Below, one piece after another: positions 44,220 through 57,288 of a stretch of DNA of 64,000 bases. Source of the stretch: Bacteroidota bacterium (lineage in GTDB: Bacteria; Bacteroidota; Ignavibacteria; Ignavibacteriales; Ignavibacteriaceae); assembly GCA_021777835.1 (NCBI GenBank), contig JAJYDC010000004.1:1-64000 (forward strand), given 5' to 3'. Under the pieces are notes generated by a model. That model saw nothing but the letters and a program-made list of their open reading frames with translations, did not search any database and had not been told where the DNA came from. The number at the start of each line of letters is the position of its first letter. Within the stretch, counting starts at the first letter, position 1. A program made the translations under genes and the position numbers.

Positions 44220-45488
44220 TTGAAATTAAAAATCTCAAATTCAGCTACTGTTTTCAAATTGATTCAAGAAGGAAAGTACGTCCTATTGTCTAATCTTCTT
44301 GAAAGAGCAACATTTTTTGTCGTATTCATTGTCCTTGCAAGGTCGCTACCAAAAAATATTTATGGCCTTATAACAGCTATTTTTGTATTCTCAAACATTC
44401 TTTATTTTTTTTTTGATTTCGGACTTCCTTTTTATTTCCAGAGGGAGTTTGCCATCTCAAATAACAATCTTATAAAGGAAATAGGCAGTATATTAAGATT
44501 AAAAATATACCTATTCTTAGTTTATATAACTTTTGTTTTATTGTATTTCAAGGGAGAGATATTGGAGAACACAAGCTTAATTTTAATAATATCAATTTCA
44601 ATTTATATCTTCGGCACGAACTCTCTATTCAATGCTATCCTGTTAGGTAAAAAGTTATATAGAACTTCTTTTATACTTATGCTGTTCAGCCGCTGTATGT
44701 TTCTGCCGGCATTTCTGGTCTCTTCATTTTATAATCTTAATGTAAATTTTATAATTTACAACTTTTTGATTGCAGCGATATTACATTCAATTCTATTGAT
44801 TAATCAGTTAGATAAAAATGAATTAAGAATTGATCTCAGAATTGTTGACAGAGATAAAATAATGAAAATATTAAAGTCGTCAATTCCGATAGGAGCAGGA
44901 TTAATATTTGTATGGTTTTATGATAAAGTTGATGTGCTTATTATTCAGAATATAATAAGCTTTAAAGCGGTTGCTTCATATGCAATTGCTTATTCCATTT
45001 ATAAAACGGTGCAAATAATTCCGGGTATTTTGCTGGTCCCGGCTTACAATAATTTTTCTAGGAATTTCTCCACTAAGAATTTTATTAATTGGAAAGAATT
45101 GAAGCCGATAATTATATTCTTAACACTTATCAGCCTCATTGTAATAACCGTATTCTATTTTTCGGCTGATATAATAATTTTAATAATATACGGGCGTAAA
45201 TATTTATCATCGGCTTTATATCTAAAAGGTCTGATATTTGCAATACCGGGGCTATTTTTAAATAATTTAACAGGAGTAATTTCAAATTCTATTAGGAAAG
45301 AAAATTTCCCCTTAATTGGAACAGGAATTGGAGCGGTGGTTAATATTTCGTTTAACATAATTATGGTCGGAGCAATAGGCATCTGGGGCGCAGTGTATTC
45401 AACTATTATTGCGGAATATCTGGTGCTTTTAATTCAACTTGTTTTACTTCGGAAATATTATATTTCATTTAAATACATCATGATTTAA
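44220..45488 (+). CDS. Polysaccharide flippase, Wzx-like
   Basis: A 422-residue inner-membrane protein with about 12 to 14 hydrophobic segments, of the MATE/MOP polysaccharide-biosynthesis group. The early FFVVFIVLARSLPKNIYGLI and FDFGLPFYFQREFA segments are typical. It should move lipid-linked oligosaccharide units to the periplasmic face. The start is TTG directly after the upstream stop, with AGGAAG 4 bases before it. It opens the run of glycosyltransferase genes and is probably coupled to the EnvC-like gene. Confidence 0.85.
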   Translation: MKLKISNSATVFKLIQEGKYVLLSNLLERATFFVVFIVLARSLPKNIYGLITAIFVFSNILYFFFDFGLPFYFQREFAISNNNLIKEIGSILRLKIYLFLVYITFVLLYFKGEILENTSLILIISISIYIFGTNSLFNAILLGKKLYRTSFILMLFSRCMFLPAFLVSSFYNLNVNFIIYNFLIAAILHSILLINQLDKNELRIDLRIVDRDKIMKILKSSIPIGAGLIFVWFYDKVDVLIIQNIISFKAVASYAIAYSIYKTVQIIPGILLVPAYNNFSRNFSTKNFINWKELKPIIIFLTLISLIVITVFYFSADIIILIIYGRKYLSSALYLKGLIFAIPGLFLNNLTGVISNSIRKENFPLIGTGIGAVVNISFNIIMVGAIGIWGAVYSTIIAEYLVLLIQLVLLRKYYISFKYIMI

Positions 45489-45504: not shown

Positions 45505-46614
45505 ATGAAAATTGTGTATTTAGGAAGATATAATTATTCTGAAATTCTTGGAGGACCTGAGAAAGTTGCCAAAAGAATATACTCACATTTATCTGATAAA
45601 TGTATCAATTCGATTTTTATCGAATATTTTTTTGAAGGTAAAAAGTACAGTATCAAAGAGAAACTATTTGGTAAAAAAATATTCAATACAACGGGAAATA
45701 AAATAGTTTATAGACTTGGTTTAATCAGACTGTTATTCTTTTTGATAAAAATCAAACCCGATTTAATCCATGTTATTACTTTTGAGCGATTTTCTATTAT
45801 TTCAATAGTCTATAAAATATTGTATCGGGTAAAACTTGTATATACAGTTCACGGTGTAATTGTAGATGAAAATAAAATTCAGAATCAAGGAATATCCCAC
45901 ATATATATTATTAAGGACATATTAGTCGAGAAATCTTTATTTAGGTTTGCTGATAGGGCTATTTTTTTATCTGAAATATCTATTCAAGCAGCGCAAAGGT
46001 ATTATAAAATTAATGATGATAAAGTTGTGATCATACCGAATGGTATAGATAATATTTTCTATAGAAAGGAATTACATAAAAACGATAACGAGGAAGAATT
46101 TAATATTGTTTTTGTCGGTAACACCAATAGAAAAGGAAAAGGATTTGATCTCTTATTATCGGCATTGAAAGAAGTTAAATTTAGGGCTAATCTTTATGTT
46201 GTTTCCGAATTATCCGAAACAAAGTTCTTGAATGAAAATGGACTAATAAAAATATTTTTTGTAAATAAAATGGATACCGAAGCTTTTGCAAAATTTTTAA
46301 ATGATAAACATTTTTTTATTTCGGCAAGCTTGTTTGATTCGTTTTCACTAACCGCTATTGAAGCCATGGCAGCCGGAGTTATTCCTGTCGTTACTAGGGA
46401 GACTGGAATGGCTAGATTCATTATTCACCGTGAAAGTGGTTTTATTTATGATTATGGTAATTATAAAACACTTGCTAATTTATTAACTCAATTGAGCTCA
46501 GATATGGAATTAAGAAAACGAGTTTCAAATAATGCCAAACTGATATACAATCTTCTTAGCTGGGATAAAATCATAGAGCAGTATATTTTCTTATATAAAG
46601 AAATAATTAACTAA
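45505..46614 (+). CDS. Glycosyltransferase family 4
   Basis: A 369-residue GT-B enzyme. The N-terminal acceptor domain starts MKIVYLGRYNYSEILGGPEKVA, with the Gly-Gly-rich loop usual for GT4. VYTVHGVI lies mid-domain, and the donor domain has IVFVGNTNRKGKGFDLL and the E-x7-E region DSFSLTAIEAMAAGVIPVVT. It should transfer a sugar from a nucleotide-sugar to a growing surface glycan at the inner face of the membrane. The sugar cannot be named. It ends 2 bases before the next transferase. Confidence 0.88.
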   Translation: MKIVYLGRYNYSEILGGPEKVAKRIYSHLSDKCINSIFIEYFFEGKKYSIKEKLFGKKIFNTTGNKIVYRLGLIRLLFFLIKIKPDLIHVITFERFSIISIVYKILYRVKLVYTVHGVIVDENKIQNQGISHIYIIKDILVEKSLFRFADRAIFLSEISIQAAQRYYKINDDKVVIIPNGIDNIFYRKELHKNDNEEEFNIVFVGNTNRKGKGFDLLLSALKEVKFRANLYVVSELSETKFLNENGLIKIFFVNKMDTEAFAKFLNDKHFFISASLFDSFSLTAIEAMAAGVIPVVTRETGMARFIIHRESGFIYDYGNYKTLANLLTQLSSDMELRKRVSNNAKLIYNLLSWDKIIEQYIFLYKEIIN

Positions 46615-46616
46615 AA

Positions 46617-47672
46617 ATGAAAGTTTTATTTATTACAAATGAACTGTTAAACTCTTGCGGAGTGTCAAATCATCTTTATTATCTTTTGCCGGAACTGAAA
46701 AAACTCCCTAATATAGAAATATTATTACTATGCGGTGGTGGGGATGCAGTAGATAAATTTAAAGAACTAAGTATCCCAATTATTGTAGATGCAAAATTTA
46801 ATCATAAGTATCGATCAATAAAGCGATACTTATTCGCTTTATTATGTCTATATAGATTGATAAAGAATAATAATATAGAAATTATCCACTCGCATAATCA
46901 TTATGCGGCTAGCATTGCATTTTACGCAAGCAAGATAACAAAGACCAAAACAATTCTAACAAATCATGGACTTTTTCCGGAAGTTGGTATATTAAATCAC
47001 TATTTAGCAGATAATATCGTTGCAGTGAATAATCATATTTACGATTATATTATTTCAAATAAATTTGCTGATAATCTAAAAGTAAGATTAATTAGAAACG
47101 GGGTTCCGCTATCTGGCCTTAATAAGTCACGAAATAAGAAAATTAAATTCTTAGCAGCATCAAGACTTGTGAAAGGGAAAGGAATTGATGTATTTATTAA
47201 AGCAGTTAGTCTTCTTCCCGCAAATTATAAAGAAAGGGCCGAGTTTTATTTTGCAGGCAAAGGTGAGCTTGAAGATGCACTTTTAAAAGTAAACAAAAAT
47301 CTTAAGGAGCCCGTAATATTTCTTGGTGAAATAAAAAACCTGAAAGACGAATTAATGAAATATGATGTTTTTGTTTTTCCATCCATATCAGAAGAGGGCT
47401 TCCCAATTGCGATGACCGAAGCAGCATTTGCTAAAAATTTAATAATTACGTCGACATTTAGAGGATTGGAACCGATATTCGATAAAAACGAAGATGGATT
47501 GATTTTCAGAATTAATAACGCAGTCGATTTAGCTGATAAAATAAAATATGCAATAGATAAATTTCCAAAACTTACGGGATTGGTTGAGGCGTTTTATATT
47601 AAGGTAATTGAATTGTTTGACCTACAAAGAATGGTAACTGAAATAGTCAAATTATATACCGAAATTCTGTAA
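46617..47672 (+). CDS. Glycosyltransferase family 4
   Basis: A 351-residue GT4. The acceptor domain begins MKVLFITNELLNSCGVSNHL. The donor domain has FLAASRLVKGKGIDVFIKA (nucleotide-sugar loop) and VFPSISEEGFPIAMTEAAFA (E-x7-E). The opening resembles the third GT4 of this cluster (CGISKTIYLL), so these two are probably closer to each other than to the one upstream. Its stop codon shares one base with the next start (TAATG). Confidence 0.88.
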   Translation: MKVLFITNELLNSCGVSNHLYYLLPELKKLPNIEILLLCGGGDAVDKFKELSIPIIVDAKFNHKYRSIKRYLFALLCLYRLIKNNNIEIIHSHNHYAASIAFYASKITKTKTILTNHGLFPEVGILNHYLADNIVAVNNHIYDYIISNKFADNLKVRLIRNGVPLSGLNKSRNKKIKFLAASRLVKGKGIDVFIKAVSLLPANYKERAEFYFAGKGELEDALLKVNKNLKEPVIFLGEIKNLKDELMKYDVFVFPSISEEGFPIAMTEAAFAKNLIITSTFRGLEPIFDKNEDGLIFRINNAVDLADKIKYAIDKFPKLTGLVEAFYIKVIELFDLQRMVTEIVKLYTEIL

Positions 47673-48646
47673 TGAATTTGTCAATTTTAATTACAACCTA
47701 TAATTGTGGGAATTTTATTACACCATCAATAATGAGTGTATTAAACCAAACACATAAATGTTTTGAATTATTAGTAATTGACGACGGCTCAAATGATAAT
47801 ACAGAAATTATTATTAAAAATTTTCAGGATAAAAGGATAAAGTACATAAAAATCGATCATATTGGGAGAAGTAAGGCGTTAAATTATGGCTTGAGGGAAG
47901 CTAAATATGAATGGGTTGCGTTAATGGATGCAGATGATATTTGGCATCCACAAAAAATCGAACGGCAATTAAATAATTTTTCTTTTAAGAAGAATGAGGT
48001 AATTGCTACTTGGTCTGCTTACTTTAAGCAAAAAACAATTTTATATACAGTAGATACTCCATTAGAGGTTATAGAGCTTAAGGAAAAGATGGCTTTGCAT
48101 TCATTTATATGTAATCCTAGTGTAATTTATAATAAGAATTTTGTACTTGAGAATGGCGGATATGATGAAAATTTAACTCGTTTTGAAGATTATGATTTTT
48201 GGCTCAAAACGTTAAACAAAATAAGTTTTACTATAATTCCCGAATATTTAGTTTTTATGAGAATTCGTGCTTCTTCGTCATCAAATGAAAACAAAAGCGT
48301 GACAAGGAAAATTGTTTATGAACTACAAGAAAAGTATTCTGATGAAAAGAAAAATAATTATTATCAGGTAAACCAAGCCGAAATGCTAAGACTAAAAGGT
48401 TGGCGGGAATATTTCTATGGTAATAAAATTAAGGTTAGGAGTAATTGGCTTAATATAAACATATTTAATTGGGATTATAGAATGTGTCTTGCGTTTGTGC
48501 TAACATTTTTCCCTTCAAATATCCTAAATATTATAAGAGAATACCGTTTAAGGATTAGACTAATAACATTTATCCATCGTTTAACAAATAAATATTGGTT
48601 ACCGGAAAAATTTCTTAGAGAATTCTTGCATCCAGAAAAAGATTAA
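47672..48646 (+). CDS. Glycosyltransferase family 2
   Basis: A 324-residue GT-A enzyme. SILITTYNCGNFITPSIMSV, LLVIDDGSNDNT and the metal-binding ALMDADDIWHPQKIERQ give the typical GT2 sequence, and the catalytic-base region NPSVIYNK...GGYDENLTRFEDYDFW follows. The C-terminal 80 residues are basic. It overlaps the previous gene by one base and belongs to the same glycan operon. Confidence 0.9.
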   Translation: MNLSILITTYNCGNFITPSIMSVLNQTHKCFELLVIDDGSNDNTEIIIKNFQDKRIKYIKIDHIGRSKALNYGLREAKYEWVALMDADDIWHPQKIERQLNNFSFKKNEVIATWSAYFKQKTILYTVDTPLEVIELKEKMALHSFICNPSVIYNKNFVLENGGYDENLTRFEDYDFWLKTLNKISFTIIPEYLVFMRIRASSSSNENKSVTRKIVYELQEKYSDEKKNNYYQVNQAEMLRLKGWREYFYGNKIKVRSNWLNINIFNWDYRMCLAFVLTFFPSNILNIIREYRLRIRLITFIHRLTNKYWLPEKFLREFLHPEKD

Positions 48647-48712
48647 AATGATATTAATGAAGAATAATAAGAAAGATTTCTAATATTGGTAAACTCTAGA
48701 ATTTATAATCTA

Positions 48713-49798
48713 ATGACGAAAAATAAGATTGTAGTATTACATCTTCAACCAGAATTAAATATTACTTGTGGCATAAGTAAAACCATTTATCTACTTGTAA
48801 TTAATTCTAATAAAAGATTTACTCAGTTAATTTGCACTTTCGGAGGTGATGGAATAGAAAGATTCACAAATGCAGGTGTTAAGCCTATACTTCTTAAGAA
48901 CTATAAAAATAAAATAATTTTTGCCCCAATTATATTTTTCAATTTGTATATCATTTGTAAAAAATACAATGTTGAGATAGTCCATTCGCATCATCGATAC
49001 TTTGATTTCCTATCCTATATTTTGTCGAAATTTATTAAAATAAAAACAATAACAAGTGTGCAGAGCAAAGTAAGTAGATTACAAAAGTTTAGTTATAATT
49101 CAGATATATTAATCGCTGTAAGTAACTCAATACAGAATCATTTGATAGAAAAATTTTTGATAAATAAAAATAAAATAGTGACAATTAATAATTTTATCAT
49201 AAGAGATGAGTCGTATATAAAGGAAAGCAGAGAATATTTAATGAAAAAGTACCTTCTTGGTTCTGAAGACATTACTCTGACTTTTGTCGGTAGGTTTGAT
49301 ACTGAAAAGGGGGTAGATATATTGCTAAAAGCATTCGAACCTTTACAGTCAATGAATAATAATTTAAAATTGTTATTAGTTGGTAATGGGCGAGAACAAG
49401 CTTTTGTTACTCAATTTATTAACAAACACAATTTGAAAGCTAAAATTATCAATGCAACCTTAAATATTTTTGAGATTTATAAGATATCAGATATCGTTAT
49501 TCTGCCTTCTAGAGTTGATCCATTCCCATTGGTAATGTTGGAAGCAGGATTAATGAAAAAACCGTTTATTGGAAGTATGGTTGATGGAATTTCCGAGTTT
49601 ATTCAAGATGGAATAAATGGATTATTATTTGAATCGGGAAATGCCAAGGAACTTTCATCCTTAATTCTGTCTCTCATTGAAGATAGAGAAAAGGCGAAAC
49701 AATTAGGGGAAAACTTATACCAAAAAGTAATTGAAAATAATACTTCTGATTATGCAATTAGAGCTTATCAAGAAGTTTATAAAAAAATGATTTCTTAA
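48713..49798 (+). CDS. Glycosyltransferase family 4
   Basis: A GT4 of about 361 residues. The start at ATG 48713 gives MTKNKIVVLHLQPELNITCG; an in-frame TTG at 48686 adds nine residues that do not look conserved. The donor domain has LTFVGRFDTEKGVDILLKA and VILPSRVDPFPLVMLEAGLM (E-x7-E type). Codon use is AT-rich like its neighbours. It is followed within 60 bases by the WecG-family gene. Confidence 0.87.
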   Translation: MTKNKIVVLHLQPELNITCGISKTIYLLVINSNKRFTQLICTFGGDGIERFTNAGVKPILLKNYKNKIIFAPIIFFNLYIICKKYNVEIVHSHHRYFDFLSYILSKFIKIKTITSVQSKVSRLQKFSYNSDILIAVSNSIQNHLIEKFLINKNKIVTINNFIIRDESYIKESREYLMKKYLLGSEDITLTFVGRFDTEKGVDILLKAFEPLQSMNNNLKLLLVGNGREQAFVTQFINKHNLKAKIINATLNIFEIYKISDIVILPSRVDPFPLVMLEAGLMKKPFIGSMVDGISEFIQDGINGLLFESGNAKELSSLILSLIEDREKAKQLGENLYQKVIENNTSDYAIRAYQEVYKKMIS

Positions 49799-49856: not shown

Positions 49857-50531
49857 TTGATGAGTCAAATATCAAAAGCGATGGAGAATGAGGGTGTGAA
49901 GTCCATTACTTATGTAACTTCTAACACGTTAAATTTAATCTTTGATAATAATAAGCTGCTAAACATTTTTAATCAATTTGACTTAATCCACCCTGATGGC
50001 ATGGGAGTTATTATTGCTTCTCAATTATTATATGGTAAAAACGGTTTAAAAAAAAGAATAACAGGCTCTGACTTTTACCCAATGTTGAATCAAGTTGCAA
50101 TAAAAAACAAATGGAAAATATTTTTCTTTGGGGATGAAGACACAACTTTGAAAAAAATAGTAAAGATTAACCCGCGATTACTTGTTGCAGGATGGCATAA
50201 CGGATATACTTATAACGATGATGAAATTGTCACAGAAATTAATAAATCTAAAACAGATATCTTAATAGTAGGGTTAGGTTGTCCTAAACAAGAGAAGTGG
50301 ATTGTTGAAAACAAGGATAAGCTATCTGTAAAGATTATTATAGCCGTTGGTGACGGCATTAAAGTTTTTGCCGGAATAAAAAAAAGAGGTAATAGATTCT
50401 TGCAAACTATTGGACTGGAGTGGGTGGCACGATTAATTAATAACCCAATGTTATATTGGAAAAGATATTTGATTGGAATCCCATTGTTTTTATTTCGGGT
50501 AATAGGATCAAAATATTCTAATGGCAAATAG
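49857..50531 (+). CDS. WecG/TagA/CpsF-family glycosyltransferase (GT26)
   Basis: It transfers a sugar such as N-acetylmannosamine(uronate) to a lipid-linked acceptor. The core motifs are LIHPDGMGVIIASQLLYG (catalytic Asp), KRITGSDFYPML, ILIVGLGCPKQEKWI and VGDGIKVFAGIKKRGNRFLQTIGLEW. The TTG/ATG start at 49857/49860 gives 224 residues, but the family's N-terminal strand and helix (IFNININSLKYDDLMSQ) is encoded in the same open frame upstream. The frame is open to a TGA at 49788, with no ATG, GTG or TTG before 49857. An ATT at 49812, with GGGAAG seven bases before, may be the real start. It overlaps the downstream frame by a few bases. Confidence 0.85.
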   Translation: MMSQISKAMENEGVKSITYVTSNTLNLIFDNNKLLNIFNQFDLIHPDGMGVIIASQLLYGKNGLKKRITGSDFYPMLNQVAIKNKWKIFFFGDEDTTLKKIVKINPRLLVAGWHNGYTYNDDEIVTEINKSKTDILIVGLGCPKQEKWIVENKDKLSVKIIIAVGDGIKVFAGIKKRGNRFLQTIGLEWVARLINNPMLYWKRYLIGIPLFLFRVIGSKYSNGK

Positions 50532-50532
50532 T

Positions 50533-53500
50533 ATGAAGTATTTTCTTTTTGTGTTGTTTGGTATAGTTATTTGCTTGGGCACCCTGCATGGTCAGCAAAG
50601 ACATATTACAAAAGTTCAAAACAATTCCTTTTTTGTAACAATTGATTCAAGTTCTTGCAAATTTACTGATACTACAAAAGGGAAATTTATTTTACGAGAT
50701 TATTATAATTTTGCTGACCCTGCTTCACCCGGTACTTATGTACTTCCATACAAAGACATAGTACTTGCAATACCCCCTTATTCGCGCCCTAACATTCAAA
50801 TCGTAAATAAACAGGAAACTATTCTAAGCGATTATATCCCAGCTACTAACCCTCTCCCTACTCTGACTAACGATTCAACTATTACTCTAAAAAATATCGG
50901 ATATAAAAATATAGAGAATTATAAGCCTCAAAACATTGTACAAGTTGAGGGCTATTTTTGGTTTAGAGATTATTATTGTGTTCACTTAAGAATAAATAAT
51001 TATTACTTCGATCAAAAAAACTCAAGCATTGTGGAATATAAGAACCTTCAATTATCATTTAGTTTTTCTCAACCTTTATCGTCATCAGCTCCGATAAAAA
51101 CCCGTTCACAATATGACAGACAACTTAAGAATTTAATTTATGATGCAGATATTGCCGAACAATTCAGAGCTAATCCAAAGTTAATTATGAACGATTCAAC
51201 GGATAATTGGATAAATTTCAATTCAACTTATGTTAAGCTTGGCGTAGCAAATGATGCTTTGTTTAGGATTTATAAATCTGATCTCACTAATCTTGGTGTG
51301 GATGTGACTGGGATAAATCCTAAAACATTTCAGCTCTTTTTATATGGAAAGGAAATACCGATTTTTGTTAAGAATGAAGATAGCGGAGTTTTTTCAGACA
51401 GCGATTATATAGAATTTTTCGGCACAAGAAATTACCCTACAATTTCATATAGGACAATAAATACTCCTGATCAGAACTACAACGAATATCTTAATCGTTA
51501 TACGGACACGTCAATCTATTTTTTAACATGGGGAAATCAAAATGGCATTCGTTCAAGTATTGACTCAACTTTCATAACTCCAATAAGCGATACACTTAAA
51601 TATTGTACTCAATTAGTGCACAATGAAAAAAATATAATGGTTCAAAATTTATATGATGATGAAGTTGAAAATCAATCACCCGGCTGGATGAGAAATAGAT
51701 CCTGGTATTGGACGTGGCTTTTTGTCGGACAAACCTCCTATTCATTCCAGGTTCCAAATTTATATCCAAATGAACCAGCTAATTTTTATTTTAAATTAGT
51801 CAGCGCTGGCTCAAACCTTTCTACAAATTCACACAATATTACTCTGTCTGTTAATAAGGCCACTTTAGATTCGGAAGTTGTAAACAGATATCAGCAAGTA
51901 CTTCTTCACGGTACTGTTAATTCCAACAATTTATTATCAGGGACCAATCAACTTTCTGTCAGGAATTATGATAACGGGACTTCCCCCAATTATCTTGCTA
52001 TAGATTGGTATGATATTGAATATCCAGCTTATTTAATTATGCAAAATGATTCTCTTTATTTTAAAGTCAGTGATGACGTTACAAGAAAGGTGAGAGTTAT
52101 TCAAATAAATAATGTTTCCGATACTGATCTAATCATTTACAAGGTAAAACCGGGTTTTATAAGAAAACTTAATTTTATTATATTGTCAGGCAAACTATTT
52201 TTCACAGATACGATTGGAGCAGGAGATACTTATGAAATCATTTCACCTTCAAAAATTCAGAGACCAGTTTATTATTACAAGAAGCAGTTTGTTGATTTAA
52301 GAAATTCAAATAACCAGGCTGATTACATCGCAATAACCCATCCTGATTTCCTGCAAGCTGCAAGCAATTACGTGCAAAAAATATCTTCAATGTATTCTGT
52401 AAATGCAAAATTAATTAACGTGCAGGACATCTATGATGAATTTGGATATGGATTTCCAACTCCAGAATCAATTAAGCTTTTCATTGAGTCTGCTTTCCAA
52501 TACTGGCAGAGTCCCAAACCTTCGTATCTTACAATAATTGGAGATGCAGATTATGACTATAAGCATTATTTGCTTATAAATAATGGGACAATCGGAGGAG
52601 GAAATTATGTGCCTTCGTACGGTGATCCGGTTAGTGATAATTGGTATGTTGTTTGGGGGGACAGTTCCATTGCAATTCCTCAAATGATGGTTGGAAGAAT
52701 CCCAATAAATAATTCTTCAGATCTGAATTATTATTTAAGTAAAGTTGTCAATAATTATAATTCACCATACGATGAATTCAATAAAAGGTATTTACTATTT
52801 TCCGGGGGAGATGCTACCAGTCAAGCAGAAATTGATCAACTAAAAACAGTTAATGATTCGATAATAACCGAGCTATTGCGGCCTAAACCAATAGCGGGAG
52901 AATATTCGCATTTTTATAAGACAATTAATCCAGCTACAAACTTTGGTCCTTATACTTCAGATCAAGTGCAGTCTGCGATTTCAAATGGTGGAGTCTTTAT
53001 CTCATATATAGGGCATAGTGGAACTGCTACCTGGGATAATAGCATTAACGAAACGACCCAGCTTGAAAACAATGTCGGTAAAAATTCCTTGATGACTGAT
53101 TTTGGCTGTTCTACAAATAAATTTGCAGAACCTGACATTATCTGTTTTGGTGAAAGATTTCTTTTAAGTAATACCGGGCAAGCTATAGATTATCTAGGCA
53201 ATTCGTCTCTTGGTTTTACCACTACTGCTACTACAGTACCAATTTTATTCTATCGTTCTCTTTTACTGGACACATTGCATCAAATTGGAGCAGCTCATTT
53301 AAATGCGAAAATCCAGATGTTTGATCTTTACGGAGGTTCGGAAGTATTTAACGATTTTTCATATACTAATTCACTACTTGGCGATCCTGTCATTGAAATA
53401 AAAATTCCAAATAAACCAAACTTAGAAATAAGTCAAGATGATATTAATTTTCAGGACAATTCAATTACTGAAAATGATGATTCAACTTTAATGAAATTTG

Positions 53501-55866
53501 TCGTGCATAATTTTGGATTGGCAATGAATGATAGTCTTCAGATAAGAATAATTCATTCATTACCGGACAAATCAGTAGAAATAAAAAACTTAACTATCCA
53601 GTTACCCGATATTTCAGATACGTTAAGTGCCTGGCTAAATGTTAAATCTATGCCGGGTACACATTCTGTACAAATTATTATTGATCCCAATGATTATGTG
53701 GATGAGATTTATAAAACTGACAATACTGCGCAGACTACCTTCTATGTAGCATCTGAAAGCCTTAAAGATTTGATAGCAAATAAGGTCGAAAATTCTACTC
53801 TTAATTTTATTGATGTTCTTAGTCCTACTTTGAATAAGTCGATAAAATTCAACATTATTATTCAGACATCTCTCGAAGCAAACTTTCAAACATATAACCA
53901 GTTCTCGGATTCTGCGCAACCCTTTATTACACATATAAGCCTTTCAAATCTTACCCCCGGGAATAGATATTGGGTACGTTATAAAATAGATGATCAGAAT
54001 TCCTTATTTTCACAGCCTAAATCATTTTTGAATTCAGGCAATTATAAATTTTACCTCGCTGATTCAACATCTTTTGAAAACCAGAATAATAAAAATGTAA
54101 GTTATTCAAATACTAATTTTCATCTTTCACAAGATTCGATAAAAATTTCAGTTATATCTGAAGGTTACTATTCCGGCGCCAGCTGCTCTATTTTGATAAA
54201 TGGAAATAATATTTTATCTAACACATATTTTGCAGGGATGGGAATAGCTGTTCTCGATCAGAATTCATTTGCAATAGATACGACTGCTTGGTATAACCTT
54301 TTTAATCAACCTGCTAACATGCAGCAATTAGTGAACCTTATTAATTCAATACCTAATGGTAAGATTGTACTAATGGGTGTTGCTGATGATGCAGCAAATA
54401 ATATAACGGCAGCTTTGAAAACAGCAATCAAAACTTTAGGCAGCGCTTTGATCGATTCATTAAAGTTTAGAGGTTCGTGGGCAATTATAGGTCAGAAGGG
54501 CGCTGCAAAAGGTTCTGTTCCCGAAGGAATCGAAGAGCCTTATAGTGGGTTAGTGACAATTGATTCCATTGTCTCAGTACCTGCAGTTGACGGGAGAATG
54601 ATTACTAATAATATTGGACCAGCATCTAAATGGCAATCAATGCAGGTTAACCAAAATATTTCTTCAGATGAGTCGATAAAATTCAGACCTATTGGAATAA
54701 AGGCAGACGGTTCTTCTGATACATTAAATTATCTGACTGTAATTAACAATTTCGCAGATTTAAGTTTTATTGACTCCAGAAAATATCCTAATCTAAAATT
54801 GGATGCAGAAATACATGCTTCTTCTGTCGGTATTTCTCCGACGATAAAATTAATTGGAGTTAATTATACCGGGTTAGCAGAGCTTGGCACTAATTACCAG
54901 GTTGTCTCGATCTCACGTGATTCTGTTCTTGTCGGAACAAATGAAGGTCTGCAATTCTACGTATACAATGTCGGAGATGTTCCTGCGGACAGTTTCAATG
55001 TTTTAGTAGATGCGGTTAATTCGGATAATTCAAAAAATAAGATATATGAAACTCTGGTAGATAGTCTTAATCCCGGAAGCAGGCGTTTGTTCAATTTAAA
55101 TTATGTGCCCACGAGTGCCGGCTCTAAAAGTTTTTATATTACCATTGATCCTGATAATAAAATTGCAGAACTATATAAAGATAATAACATATTTTCAATT
55201 CCATTTTATGCGAAGGGCGATACATTGAGCCCTTCATTAAAACTAACGTTTAATGGTAAAGATATTATGGATGGCGACTATGTATCTAATAATCCTAAGA
55301 TAAAAATAGAACTTAATGATCCTTCGGCACTTCCGATTACTGATACTTCAGATATCAGTATTTTACTTAATAATAATCCTGTTTATTATTCAAATAATAC
55401 TTCAGTACTTTCTTATCAATTTAATCCAGCAAATCCAAAGTTTGTTGTTAATTATTCTCCTCATTTGACCGATGGCAATTATAATCTTACAGTAACAGGG
55501 AAAAATGCACTTGGCAAAATCGTAGATTCTACCGGTATAACAAAAAACTTTTCCGTGTCGAACCAATTCCAGATTCTAGATGTCTATAACTATCCAAACC
55601 CATTTCCTAGCGGTACCTACTTCACATTTAAATTACCTCAATTACCAGATGAATTGGATATTTTAATATATACGGTGGCAGGTAGATTAATAAAGCAAAT
55701 TAAGGTTTATTCGCCCCAATTAAATTATGATTTTAATAAGATTTATTGGGATGGAAGGGACGAGGACGGCGACTTGCTTGCAAACGGAGTATACTTCTAT
55801 AAAATAATAATTAAAAGAGCGGGTGCTACAAATAACGTTATTCAAAAATTAGCAATTGTTAGATAA
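50533..55866 (+). CDS. C25-family (gingipain/PorU-like) T9SS protein with ILEI-like domain
   Basis: Residue numbers count from an ATG at 50521; I prefer the ATG at 50533 (four residues later), just after the GT26 stop. A signal peptide ends near LHGQ. A beta-rich prodomain runs to about 600 and a C25 peptidase domain spans about 601-960, with His832 (YIGHSG) and Cys863 (FGCST) as the catalytic pair. CARDB-like repeats lie near 985-1085 and 1460-1560. Residues 1204-1335 read like the FAM3/ILEI (GG) domain (GMGIAVLDQNSF, GKIVLMGVADDA, LKFRGSWAIIGQKG). A T9SS type A sorting domain (from YNYPNPFP, 1689) ends it. It could be the sortase PorU or a secreted protease; the length exceeds usual PorU. 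Confidence 0.85.
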   Translation: MKYFLFVLFGIVICLGTLHGQQRHITKVQNNSFFVTIDSSSCKFTDTTKGKFILRDYYNFADPASPGTYVLPYKDIVLAIPPYSRPNIQIVNKQETILSDYIPATNPLPTLTNDSTITLKNIGYKNIENYKPQNIVQVEGYFWFRDYYCVHLRINNYYFDQKNSSIVEYKNLQLSFSFSQPLSSSAPIKTRSQYDRQLKNLIYDADIAEQFRANPKLIMNDSTDNWINFNSTYVKLGVANDALFRIYKSDLTNLGVDVTGINPKTFQLFLYGKEIPIFVKNEDSGVFSDSDYIEFFGTRNYPTISYRTINTPDQNYNEYLNRYTDTSIYFLTWGNQNGIRSSIDSTFITPISDTLKYCTQLVHNEKNIMVQNLYDDEVENQSPGWMRNRSWYWTWLFVGQTSYSFQVPNLYPNEPANFYFKLVSAGSNLSTNSHNITLSVNKATLDSEVVNRYQQVLLHGTVNSNNLLSGTNQLSVRNYDNGTSPNYLAIDWYDIEYPAYLIMQNDSLYFKVSDDVTRKVRVIQINNVSDTDLIIYKVKPGFIRKLNFIILSGKLFFTDTIGAGDTYEIISPSKIQRPVYYYKKQFVDLRNSNNQADYIAITHPDFLQAASNYVQKISSMYSVNAKLINVQDIYDEFGYGFPTPESIKLFIESAFQYWQSPKPSYLTIIGDADYDYKHYLLINNGTIGGGNYVPSYGDPVSDNWYVVWGDSSIAIPQMMVGRIPINNSSDLNYYLSKVVNNYNSPYDEFNKRYLLFSGGDATSQAEIDQLKTVNDSIITELLRPKPIAGEYSHFYKTINPATNFGPYTSDQVQSAISNGGVFISYIGHSGTATWDNSINETTQLENNVGKNSLMTDFGCSTNKFAEPDIICFGERFLLSNTGQAIDYLGNSSLGFTTTATTVPILFYRSLLLDTLHQIGAAHLNAKIQMFDLYGGSEVFNDFSYTNSLLGDPVIEIKIPNKPNLEISQDDINFQDNSITENDDSTLMKFVVHNFGLAMNDSLQIRIIHSLPDKSVEIKNLTIQLPDISDTLSAWLNVKSMPGTHSVQIIIDPNDYVDEIYKTDNTAQTTFYVASESLKDLIANKVENSTLNFIDVLSPTLNKSIKFNIIIQTSLEANFQTYNQFSDSAQPFITHISLSNLTPGNRYWVRYKIDDQNSLFSQPKSFLNSGNYKFYLADSTSFENQNNKNVSYSNTNFHLSQDSIKISVISEGYYSGASCSILINGNNILSNTYFAGMGIAVLDQNSFAIDTTAWYNLFNQPANMQQLVNLINSIPNGKIVLMGVADDAANNITAALKTAIKTLGSALIDSLKFRGSWAIIGQKGAAKGSVPEGIEEPYSGLVTIDSIVSVPAVDGRMITNNIGPASKWQSMQVNQNISSDESIKFRPIGIKADGSSDTLNYLTVINNFADLSFIDSRKYPNLKLDAEIHASSVGISPTIKLIGVNYTGLAELGTNYQVVSISRDSVLVGTNEGLQFYVYNVGDVPADSFNVLVDAVNSDNSKNKIYETLVDSLNPGSRRLFNLNYVPTSAGSKSFYITIDPDNKIAELYKDNNIFSIPFYAKGDTLSPSLKLTFNGKDIMDGDYVSNNPKIKIELNDPSALPITDTSDISILLNNNPVYYSNNTSVLSYQFNPANPKFVVNYSPHLTDGNYNLTVTGKNALGKIVDSTGITKNFSVSNQFQILDVYNYPNPFPSGTYFTFKLPQLPDELDILIYTVAGRLIKQIKVYSPQLNYDFNKIYWDGRDEDGDLLANGVYFYKIIIKRAGATNNVIQKLAIVR

Positions 55867-55920: not shown

Positions 55921-57288
55921 ATGAAAAAATTCATTCTATTTGCTCTTTTATTTGTTCTTATTAAGCCTGCATACTCTCAAGAGCCCTTTTATCCAAGACA
56001 AGGAAGCGGTTATTTCGACGGCGGCTTTGGTTTAAACTGGATAGATGGTGAACTCTATTATTCTTTTCATATACGTCCTGAGATTGCTTTAGGTAATTGG
56101 GGGATGGGTTTAGACTTAAATTTTGATATAAATAAGAATGGAAATGTTCGTAAAGAAAATTTTAATGAGTTATCAGATTATTTAAGCATTATACGTTATA
56201 TAAGATACGGAGAAAAACATGATCCTGTCTACATAAAATTAGGCGCGCTTGATTATTATAATCTTGGTTATGGCAACATAATGTATCAGTATAATAATAG
56301 CCCCAGTATTGACTCAAGAAAGATCGGATTAGTAACTGATATCGATTTCGGCAGCTTCGGTTTTGAATCTATTTACAGTACCTTTGCAGAAGCCGGCGTA
56401 ACTGCTGTAAGAGCATATGTAAGACCGTTAAGGTTTACAAATTTAGCTGACGTCCCGGTAATTGGCAATTTGGTAGTAGGCGGATCTTACGCTGTTGATT
56501 TTAATAAGTATTCAGGAATAGTTTATGTCCCAGATTATAGTAAAGCCACTCCAGTTCCACCATTAGGTAACTATTATGCTTTTAAACCACAAGATAAAGG
56601 CAGGATGCAAATTGTCGGAGTAGATTTGGGTTTGCCGATTATTAACACAAGTATGTTCAACCTACAGCTATATACGGATTATACAAAAATTATTAATTAC
56701 GGCAGCGGCGTCGCAACCGGAATCATGCTAGATATGAATGGTTTGGGAATTCTAAATGCTTCAGCAAGGCTTGAAAGGCGATTTAACCAAGCTCAATATA
56801 TTCCTTCATATTTTAATTCAATGTATGAAATTCAAAGGTATCAATTTGACACTGCCAATGGTTCTTTTACAAGCAAAGCTGATTTATTAGCCTCAATGAC
56901 TAATCCGGATAACGGTTATTTTGGCGAATTGGAATTACATTTTCTTGGATTACTTGACATAATCGGAAGCTATGAACGCCTCGATAAAACTCCCAACAGC
57001 GGGGTCCTTCATTTATTTGCAAACGTTTCATCTGAGGGAATGCCGGTGGTAGTCAGAGGCGGTTATGATAAAATTAATATCGGCTCAGAGTCACAGATTC
57101 TGAAGGTCGATAACAATTCTTTCATGTACTTTGAATTCGGTTATAAACCGCTTCCATATCTGCTAGTCTCGATGCTTTACAAATGGACTTTTACACCAAT
57201 AAGGGATTCAAATAATAACATCATAGATTACCAACCTCAAAAGAGAATTGAACCTAGAGTTTCTTTTATTTACCCCCTTAACTTCTAA
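55921..57288 (+). CDS. Predicted outer-membrane barrel protein
   Basis: A 455-residue protein with signal peptide ending at AYSQ. The mature part is mostly beta (YFDGGFGLNWIDGELYYSFH, LGNWGMGLDLNFDIN), ending in FIYPLNF with a terminal Phe, so an outer-membrane barrel is likely. It lies 54 bases after the C25 gene and could be its membrane partner. In Porphyromonas the C25 sortase PorU works with the barrel PorV, but this protein lacks the PorV-like ARAGGMG start. A hairpin terminator follows. Function unknown. Confidence 0.7.
   Translation: MKKFILFALLFVLIKPAYSQEPFYPRQGSGYFDGGFGLNWIDGELYYSFHIRPEIALGNWGMGLDLNFDINKNGNVRKENFNELSDYLSIIRYIRYGEKHDPVYIKLGALDYYNLGYGNIMYQYNNSPSIDSRKIGLVTDIDFGSFGFESIYSTFAEAGVTAVRAYVRPLRFTNLADVPVIGNLVVGGSYAVDFNKYSGIVYVPDYSKATPVPPLGNYYAFKPQDKGRMQIVGVDLGLPIINTSMFNLQLYTDYTKIINYGSGVATGIMLDMNGLGILNASARLERRFNQAQYIPSYFNSMYEIQRYQFDTANGSFTSKADLLASMTNPDNGYFGELELHFLGLLDIIGSYERLDKTPNSGVLHLFANVSSEGMPVVVRGGYDKINIGSESQILKVDNNSFMYFEFGYKPLPYLLVSMLYKWTFTPIRDSNNNIIDYQPQKRIEPRVSFIYPLNF

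Follow-up and report, generated by a model that had tools for sequence, protein, structure and literature searches.

What would a bacterial enzyme of the peptidase C25 family do with a GG/ILEI domain, a module familiar above all from hormone-like proteins of humans and from enzymes that handle sugars? This question is raised by a gene in a 64,000-nucleotide stretch (hereafter the window), i.e. positions 1 to 64,000 of contig JAJYDC010000004.1 (GenBank assembly GCA_021777835.1), from a Bacteroidota bacterium of the Ignavibacteriaceae. We find that this C25 protein, a relative of the putative type IX sortase PorU2, carries a GG/ILEI domain, and that genes of its type travel with glycan genes within the order. 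The larger finding is that GG domains occur with nearly all PorU2-related proteins of our sample, together with the glycan-gene linkage. The neighbouring sugar-chain-building genes suggest a role for the GG domain in choosing which chain is used. None of the GG fold, C25 and PorU2 is new by itself; their combination would surprise a specialist, and we found no publication on GG/ILEI domains in type IX proteins in the open-licence literature, where 15 papers listed in one search nowhere mention PorU2.

The GG/ILEI domain and its host protein

The Pfam ILEI profile (PF15711) matches the protein with E 1.9e-21 and 76.8 bits (cut-off 27), over profile positions 2–90 of 90. In a phmmer comparison of a 210-amino-acid (aa) segment with PDB sequences, matches were found to FAM3B (5e-9), FAM3C (4e-8), POMGNT1 (3e-6), TMEM2 (2e-4) and FAM3A (9e-4), with no further match at E ≤ 10. 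Residues 1171–1350, modelled from an alignment of 58 relatives (predicted local distance difference test, pLDDT, 90.7; predicted template modelling score, pTM, 0.79), gave 21 Foldseek matches in the PDB at E ≤ 0.001, all of them FAM3, POMGNT1 or TMEM2. By VIA-align, the predicted model fits the POMGNT1 stem with Z 20.7 (1.8 Å over 139 residues), FAM3A, FAM3B and FAM3C monomers with Z 19.2–19.7, TMEM2 with 16.0 and a FAM3C dimer entry with 15.7; altogether 12 entries of these families lie at Z 15.7–20.7, and the next row drops to 3.3. The part aligned with FAM3 and POMGNT1 corresponds to model residues 33–180, i.e. protein residues about 1203–1350 (54127–54570). The original prediction of an ILEI/FAM3/POMGNT1-stem domain is thus borne out by both the profile and the predicted fold; its limits (54130–54530) come close to the fold-based span, and the motifs that it quoted are present in the translation at that location.

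Likeness to FAM3A, FAM3B and FAM3C (ILEI, PANDER) lies in fold and profile, although these are stand-alone secreted proteins of animals. The POMGNT1 stem shares the fold, but it is fused to a glycosyltransferase, whereas the GG domain of the window is fused to a C25 enzyme. Viral models that match the predicted fold are phage tail fibre and gp35 hinge proteins. The fold is also shared by GG domains of phage tails (gp35 hinge connectors and the streptococcal Tal CBM_1; PMC9437275), and phage gp35 is listed among GG proteins (PMC10276149); in the passages cited, phage tail GG proteins have structural or adhesion roles and are described with no C25 part. What the domain does in FAM3 proteins is unsettled (PMC9802357), and bacterial GG proteins offer models in which to study it.

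The host protein passes the C25 family profile with 179.6 bits (cut-off 23), and His832 and Cys863 are both present; by analogy with gingipains and PorU, these residues would have the catalytic role. We aligned 21 proteins, namely 20 with C25 (two of which are this genome's other C25 proteins) and L062, the sole member without C25, in which the dyad positions are gapped. The profile of this alignment matches solved PorU (6za2) over positions 93–831 with E 4.8e-93 and gingipain R more weakly (3.5e-26), and at its GG part it also matches FAM3 and POMGNT1. Of the 'gingipain-type peptidase or sortase' suggested earlier, the C25 identity therefore stands, the protein being nearer to PorU and PorU2 than to gingipains. 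The neighbouring domains agree with what had been described, with CARDB and a FlgD_ig-type C-terminus, the latter under its cut-off, following the GG domain.

These values bear on one alternative, that of a secreted, gingipain-like surface peptidase whose GG domain would tether it to its own capsule or to foreign polymers, for nutrition or adhesion, without transpeptidation. Such a protein would have a C25 peptidase domain, as observed, and one of the phage tail GG domains is described as a carbohydrate-binding module (PMC9437275), but the sequence is nearer to PorU than to gingipain R, and linkage to glycan-building genes (see below) is more in keeping with a glycan of the cell's own than with a foreign one. 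We regard this alternative as rather unlikely, and in our reading the GG ligand would be the cell's own polysaccharide.

PorU2-related proteins and their glycan-gene neighbours

At E ≤ 0.001, 72 of the 97 relatives have an ILEI match, as do 101 of 395 genomes sampled from the phylum; in 86 of these 101 the match is over the cut-off. In the phylum sample, 100 rows for the PorU2 model (NF052324), 109 for ILEI and 61 for WecG were compared. Among the matches listed, ILEI lies downstream (i.e. a same-strand match within 2.5 kb, counted by position) of 61 of the 63 NF052324 matches of 300–450 bits, and of 8 of the 37 matches above 450 bits. The GG domain is therefore not peculiar to the window protein.

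In the window, the C25 gene directly follows a WecG/TagA/CpsF-family glycosyltransferase gene, itself preceded by genes for a polysaccharide flippase and four more glycosyltransferases (Table 1). Among the 97 relatives, 53 of the 77 ILEI genes have a WecG/TagA gene at a distance of up to 5 kb and 56 have one at up to 10 kb, against a rough chance expectation of 0.3 per cent per gene. Of the 53 close WecG genes, all but one (52) lie upstream; the strand is that of the ILEI gene in 38 cases and the opposite one in 15, so the linkage survives changes of orientation. Other C25 genes have no WecG within 10 kb (0 of 89, best-scoring, among the matches listed), and neither has a second C25 control (0 of 52), which consists of 52 further rows, mostly of a class of about 1900 aa, compared with the WecG rows of their genomes only. 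Four C25 rows without ILEI fall outside both controls, and their contigs have no WecG row. By presence, 65 of the 97 genomes have both ILEI and WecG, 7 ILEI only, 5 WecG only and 20 neither (Fisher p 1e-10, uncorrected for phylogeny). In 34 loci (from L075–L125, with a complete frame of at least 1700 aa and upstream neighbours present), 24 of the 68 first and second upstream neighbours are of the WecG family, and 15 of the 25 upstream-neighbour families among those listed are glycosyltransferase families.

The operon-like position directly after WecG, flippase and glycosyltransferase genes would also suit a protease acting on the cluster's polysaccharide export machinery, to mature or regulate it, with a GG domain that senses the emerging chain. 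Kinship with PorU and the C-terminal sorting-type domain indicate handling of surface cargo instead, and we consider this explanation very improbable.

The flanks of a GG gene in a distant genome (L073) include, by eye, a sugar transferase, a GDP-mannose dehydratase, a fucose synthase and a mannose-1-phosphate guanylyltransferase. Downstream of the window's C25 gene, the gene at 55921–57288 encodes a 455-aa protein with the look of an outer-membrane protein and no Pfam family, which shares at least 50 per cent identity with the downstream neighbour in several relatives. It was rejected as a PorV-like partner, having no match to the PorV model; it matches NCBIfam ImpL63 weakly (74.6 bits, cut-off 1000). 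The C25 gene is numbered here from its first ATG (50521); the orthologue at locus L075 begins at the equivalent of the ATG at 50533. The domain 3' of GG was rejected as a known lectin, as Foldseek found no match at E ≤ 0.001 and the best Z (7.5) is at the level of ordinary beta-sandwiches.

Table 1. Features of the C25 gene, its product and the upstream glycan genes (positions in the window).
Feature	Residues	Positions	Strand	Basis or remark
Polysaccharide flippase		44220–45488	+	
Glycosyltransferase, first of four		45505–46614	+	
Glycosyltransferase, second		46617–47672	+	
Glycosyltransferase, third		47672–48646	+	
Glycosyltransferase, fourth		48686–49798	+	
WecG/TagA/CpsF-family glycosyltransferase		49857–50531	+	directly upstream; stop overlaps or abuts C25 gene start
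C25-family, PorU2-related protein	1781 aa from first ATG	50521–55866	+	frame and profiles
PorU-related N-terminal region including C25	226–1068	51196–53724	+	NF052324, 385.5 bits
Peptidase C25 domain	602–959	52324–53397	+	Pfam, E 1.5e-52
His832, putative catalytic dyad	832	53014–53016	+	kept in 20/20 C25 members of the 21-protein alignment
Cys863, putative catalytic dyad	863	53107–53109	+	kept in 20/20 C25 members of the 21-protein alignment
GG (ILEI/FAM3/POMGNT1-stem) domain by fold	about 1205–1350	54133–54570	+	predicted structure, alignments
Ala1238, at POMGNT1 Arg129 place	1238	54232–54234	+	alignment; not conserved
Pfam ILEI PF15711	1239–1328	54235–54504	+	profile match
Asp1289, at POMGNT1 Asp179 place	1289	54385–54387	+	alignment
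Arg1317, at POMGNT1 Arg207 place	1317	54469–54471	+	alignment
Beta-sandwich domain 3' of GG	1345–1462	54553–54906	+	no significant match to a solved family
CARDB domain (best stretch)	1463–1559	54907–55197	+	Pfam
C-terminal FlgD_ig / type IX sorting-type domain	1698–1761	55612–55803	+	under curated cut-offs

A possible second route of type IX attachment

PorU is described as a Cys/His enzyme that cuts off the C-terminal domain (CTD) of its cargo and joins the cargo to the linking-sugar amine of anionic lipopolysaccharide (A-LPS), and PorZ as a protein that binds A-LPS and delivers it to PorU (PMC10202324, PMC8545088, PMC7468200). The pair is a precedent for a sortase that works with a glycan-binding partner. 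The GG domain resembles PorZ, a glycan-binding partner in sortase work (PMC8545088), in its possible role, but PorZ is a separate beta-propeller protein, also encoded in this genome, whereas GG is part of the C25 protein. With PorU, the window protein shares the C25 core and the Cys/His dyad.

The window protein may be a second sortase-like enzyme of the type IX system, related to PorU2, with a GG domain that grips the glycan of the neighbouring cluster as acceptor; we put this reading slightly below an even chance. The C25 domain would remove the C-terminal sorting domain from a cargo protein and transfer the cargo to a sugar acceptor, like PorU in Porphyromonas. The GG domain would be a built-in lectin for the acceptor glycan, a surface polysaccharide from the neighbouring WecG/flippase/glycosyltransferase cluster, and would thereby serve as acceptor holder in attachment to a second glycan. 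We infer sugar binding, the acceptor's origin in the neighbouring cluster and, by analogy, sortase activity; the proposed attachment mechanism rests on the PorU analogy and the gene linkage. To our knowledge, the choice of acceptor sugar in type IX systems has been worked out mainly in Porphyromonas and Tannerella. Here, a lectin-type domain of known animal fold and a gene-order tie to one glycan cluster make this choice testable.

The genome encodes a type IX translocon of its own (SprA, 1019 bits; PorZ, 391 bits; PorU, 970 bits). Its C25 matches number four: the window protein, which is also its sole ILEI match, the true PorU (L002), which has no ILEI match, and two others. The first 108 aa of the gene after PorU match PorV/PorQ models, under their cut-offs as cut. 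PorZ and PorU being present, the proposed enzyme would be an additional route. The idea that GG stands in for a missing PorZ was ruled out, PorZ being over its cut-off in this genome and in 88 of the 97 relatives. PorV2 was likewise rejected as a partner, gene positions being compared in this genome: NF052325 has matches at E ≤ 1e-20 in 95 of the 97 genomes, none over the cut-off, and this genome's two matches lie on contigs C27 and C67, whereas the C25 gene is on C86. A third class of C25 proteins (L003 and others), with frames of about 1900 aa, is frequent in the relatives; in this genome it has no ILEI match, and the 52 rows compared have no WecG within 10 kb.

Several results weigh against the proposed second sortase, and they concern the protein itself, its genome, the gene linkage, the sugar-contact residues and the canonical relatives. 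The protein misses the equivalog cut-offs of both PorU2 (NF052324, 385.5 bits against 450) and PorU (NF033707, 263.5 bits against 420), so that formally it is neither; it is PorU2-related, not PorU2. Likeness to PorU2 extends over the N-terminal and C25 region, nearly the whole model, but the GG domain is much nearer to the animal form than that of canonical PorU2, and it is WecG-linked in relatives. The C-terminal sorting domain is also under its cut-offs (TIGR04183, 19.7 against 23; FlgD_ig, 24.1 against 27), while the orthologue at locus L083 (Stygiobacter electus) scores 30.8 for FlgD_ig. PorU, PorZ and SprA are all encoded elsewhere in the genome, so the window protein cannot be a replacement for them. 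As to linkage, 21 of the 77 ILEI genes are on contigs without a WecG match, some of which are short; others (as in genomes G020 and G045) are long, with WecG on another contig. Outside the order the linkage is seen less often, WecG lying within 15 kb of at least 12 of 78 matches, among the WecG matches listed.

The sugar contacts are incomplete. In the cited parts of PMC9802357, the POMGNT1 stem binds beta-linked N-acetylglucosamine (GlcNAc) via R129, D179 and R207, and FAM3C and FAM3A also bind sugars; the phage Tal CBM_1, described as a carbohydrate-binding module, retains R129 and D179 (PMC9437275). The full set is the mark of a sugar-binding subset and not of the whole ILEI/GG family. The window protein has the Asp and one Arg but Ala in place of Arg129, i.e. 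two of the three residues, so its domain is not filed as an established sugar binder. In an alignment of 59 bacterial GG domains, Asp stands at the D179 place in 55, Arg at the R207 place in 54 and Arg at the R129 place in just 29. Arg129 is kept, for example, in the relative L096. Among 63 GG domains (62 loci and the window), the combination RDR occurs in 29 and the window-type ADR in 14. The scan that yielded 74 named loci used the peptide pattern SWA[IL]IGxKG, whose residues are conserved by construction; the three sugar-contact places fall outside it. Because of the Ala, the GG domain of the window's clade may bind another sugar, or none.

Canonical PorU2 has a GG-like stretch at the equivalent place when profiles are compared. 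Two alignments of canonical PorU2, holding 19 of the 20 fetched proteins (L157 was excluded beforehand), match the GG profile by hhalign, one with a probability of 97.5 per cent over 172 columns and the other with 97.0 per cent over 162, against 0.1 per cent each for two other regions of canonical PorU2-type proteins. This suggests a diverged GG copy. Single sequences are less clear: of the 20, 7 match the A5 profile at E < 0.01 (in each case at residues 1122–1237, where GG would be expected) and 8 at E < 0.1, in a search of 47 sequences. By eye, the GG motif region of canonical PorU2 looks different, the domain being diverged, and in L157 (1 of the 20) no GG-like stretch was seen. Furthermore, at least four canonical frames are just 1091–1348 aa long, which leaves scant space for GG and counts against a diverged copy. 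Probably GG belonged to PorU2 from early on and has drifted or been lost in the canonical group, a point of which we are less sure than of the rest. Given its diverged, weak or missing state there, sugar binding may not be what the domain generally does.

Both the residue pattern and the canonical proteins bear on another alternative, in which GG is a structural or protein-docking module (e.g. for a PorV-like shuttle or for PorZ) that binds no sugar here. Loss of one of three contact residues in the window's clade fits a docking role, as does the persistence of a diverged GG with a different-looking motif region in canonical PorU2. The near fixation of the D179 and R207 places, however, goes beyond the needs of a scaffold, and linkage to glycan genes is likewise at odds with docking alone; we judge this alternative unlikely.

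The proposed sortase with an acceptor-holding GG domain can be extended to the whole group: PorU2-related proteins could provide a second and widespread way of type IX attachment, with a lectin built into the enzyme and the acceptor chosen via an N-acetylhexosamine (HexNAc)-type linkage unit from the co-encoded WecG/TagA, and the GG fold could commonly recognise such glycans in bacteria, phages and animals. This extension appears doubtful to us.

GG domains in other proteins and architectures

The 74 loci of the pattern scan are mostly from Ignavibacteria or from Bacteroidota metagenome-assembled genomes (MAGs), and they include Melioribacter roseus (L093) and Stygiobacter electus; next come KSB1 and Caldithrix, and a small number are from cyanobacteria, Acidobacteria, Omnitrophota and others. 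The idea that all bacterial ILEI proteins are C25 proteins was rejected: among 22 proteins chosen for alignment A3 (L126, L127, L132, L136, L144 and others), C25 is present in 14. The other 8, cyanobacterial ones included, have ILEI with no C25 match. The scan of A3 also found FG-GAP repeats in 2 of the 22 and Tc-toxin-type domains in 1.

Individual loci show further variation. L064:169-7365 (the L109 gene) encodes a C25 protein of 2398 aa in which GG occurs twice (residues about 1173–1349 and 1797–1973), and frames of similar length occur in L104 and L114. Tandem PorU2-related genes with ILEI are found in two different families of the phylum (L065:4500-15376 and L068:4533-15134). In a single-contig genome, the GG-bearing gene at L058:9789-14940 is split into three open frames, either by a real break or by a sequencing error. 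L062:11994-13751 encodes a protein of 585 aa that has its ILEI domain at the N-terminus; a phosphatidylserine decarboxylase match is most likely this protein's, because it is the member without C25. Lastly, six proteins of about 1880–1970 aa (L117, L118, L129, L137, L138 and L142) have the GG domain at residue about 510–590 instead of 1200, and thus another domain order; five of the six are from KSB1/Caldithrix.

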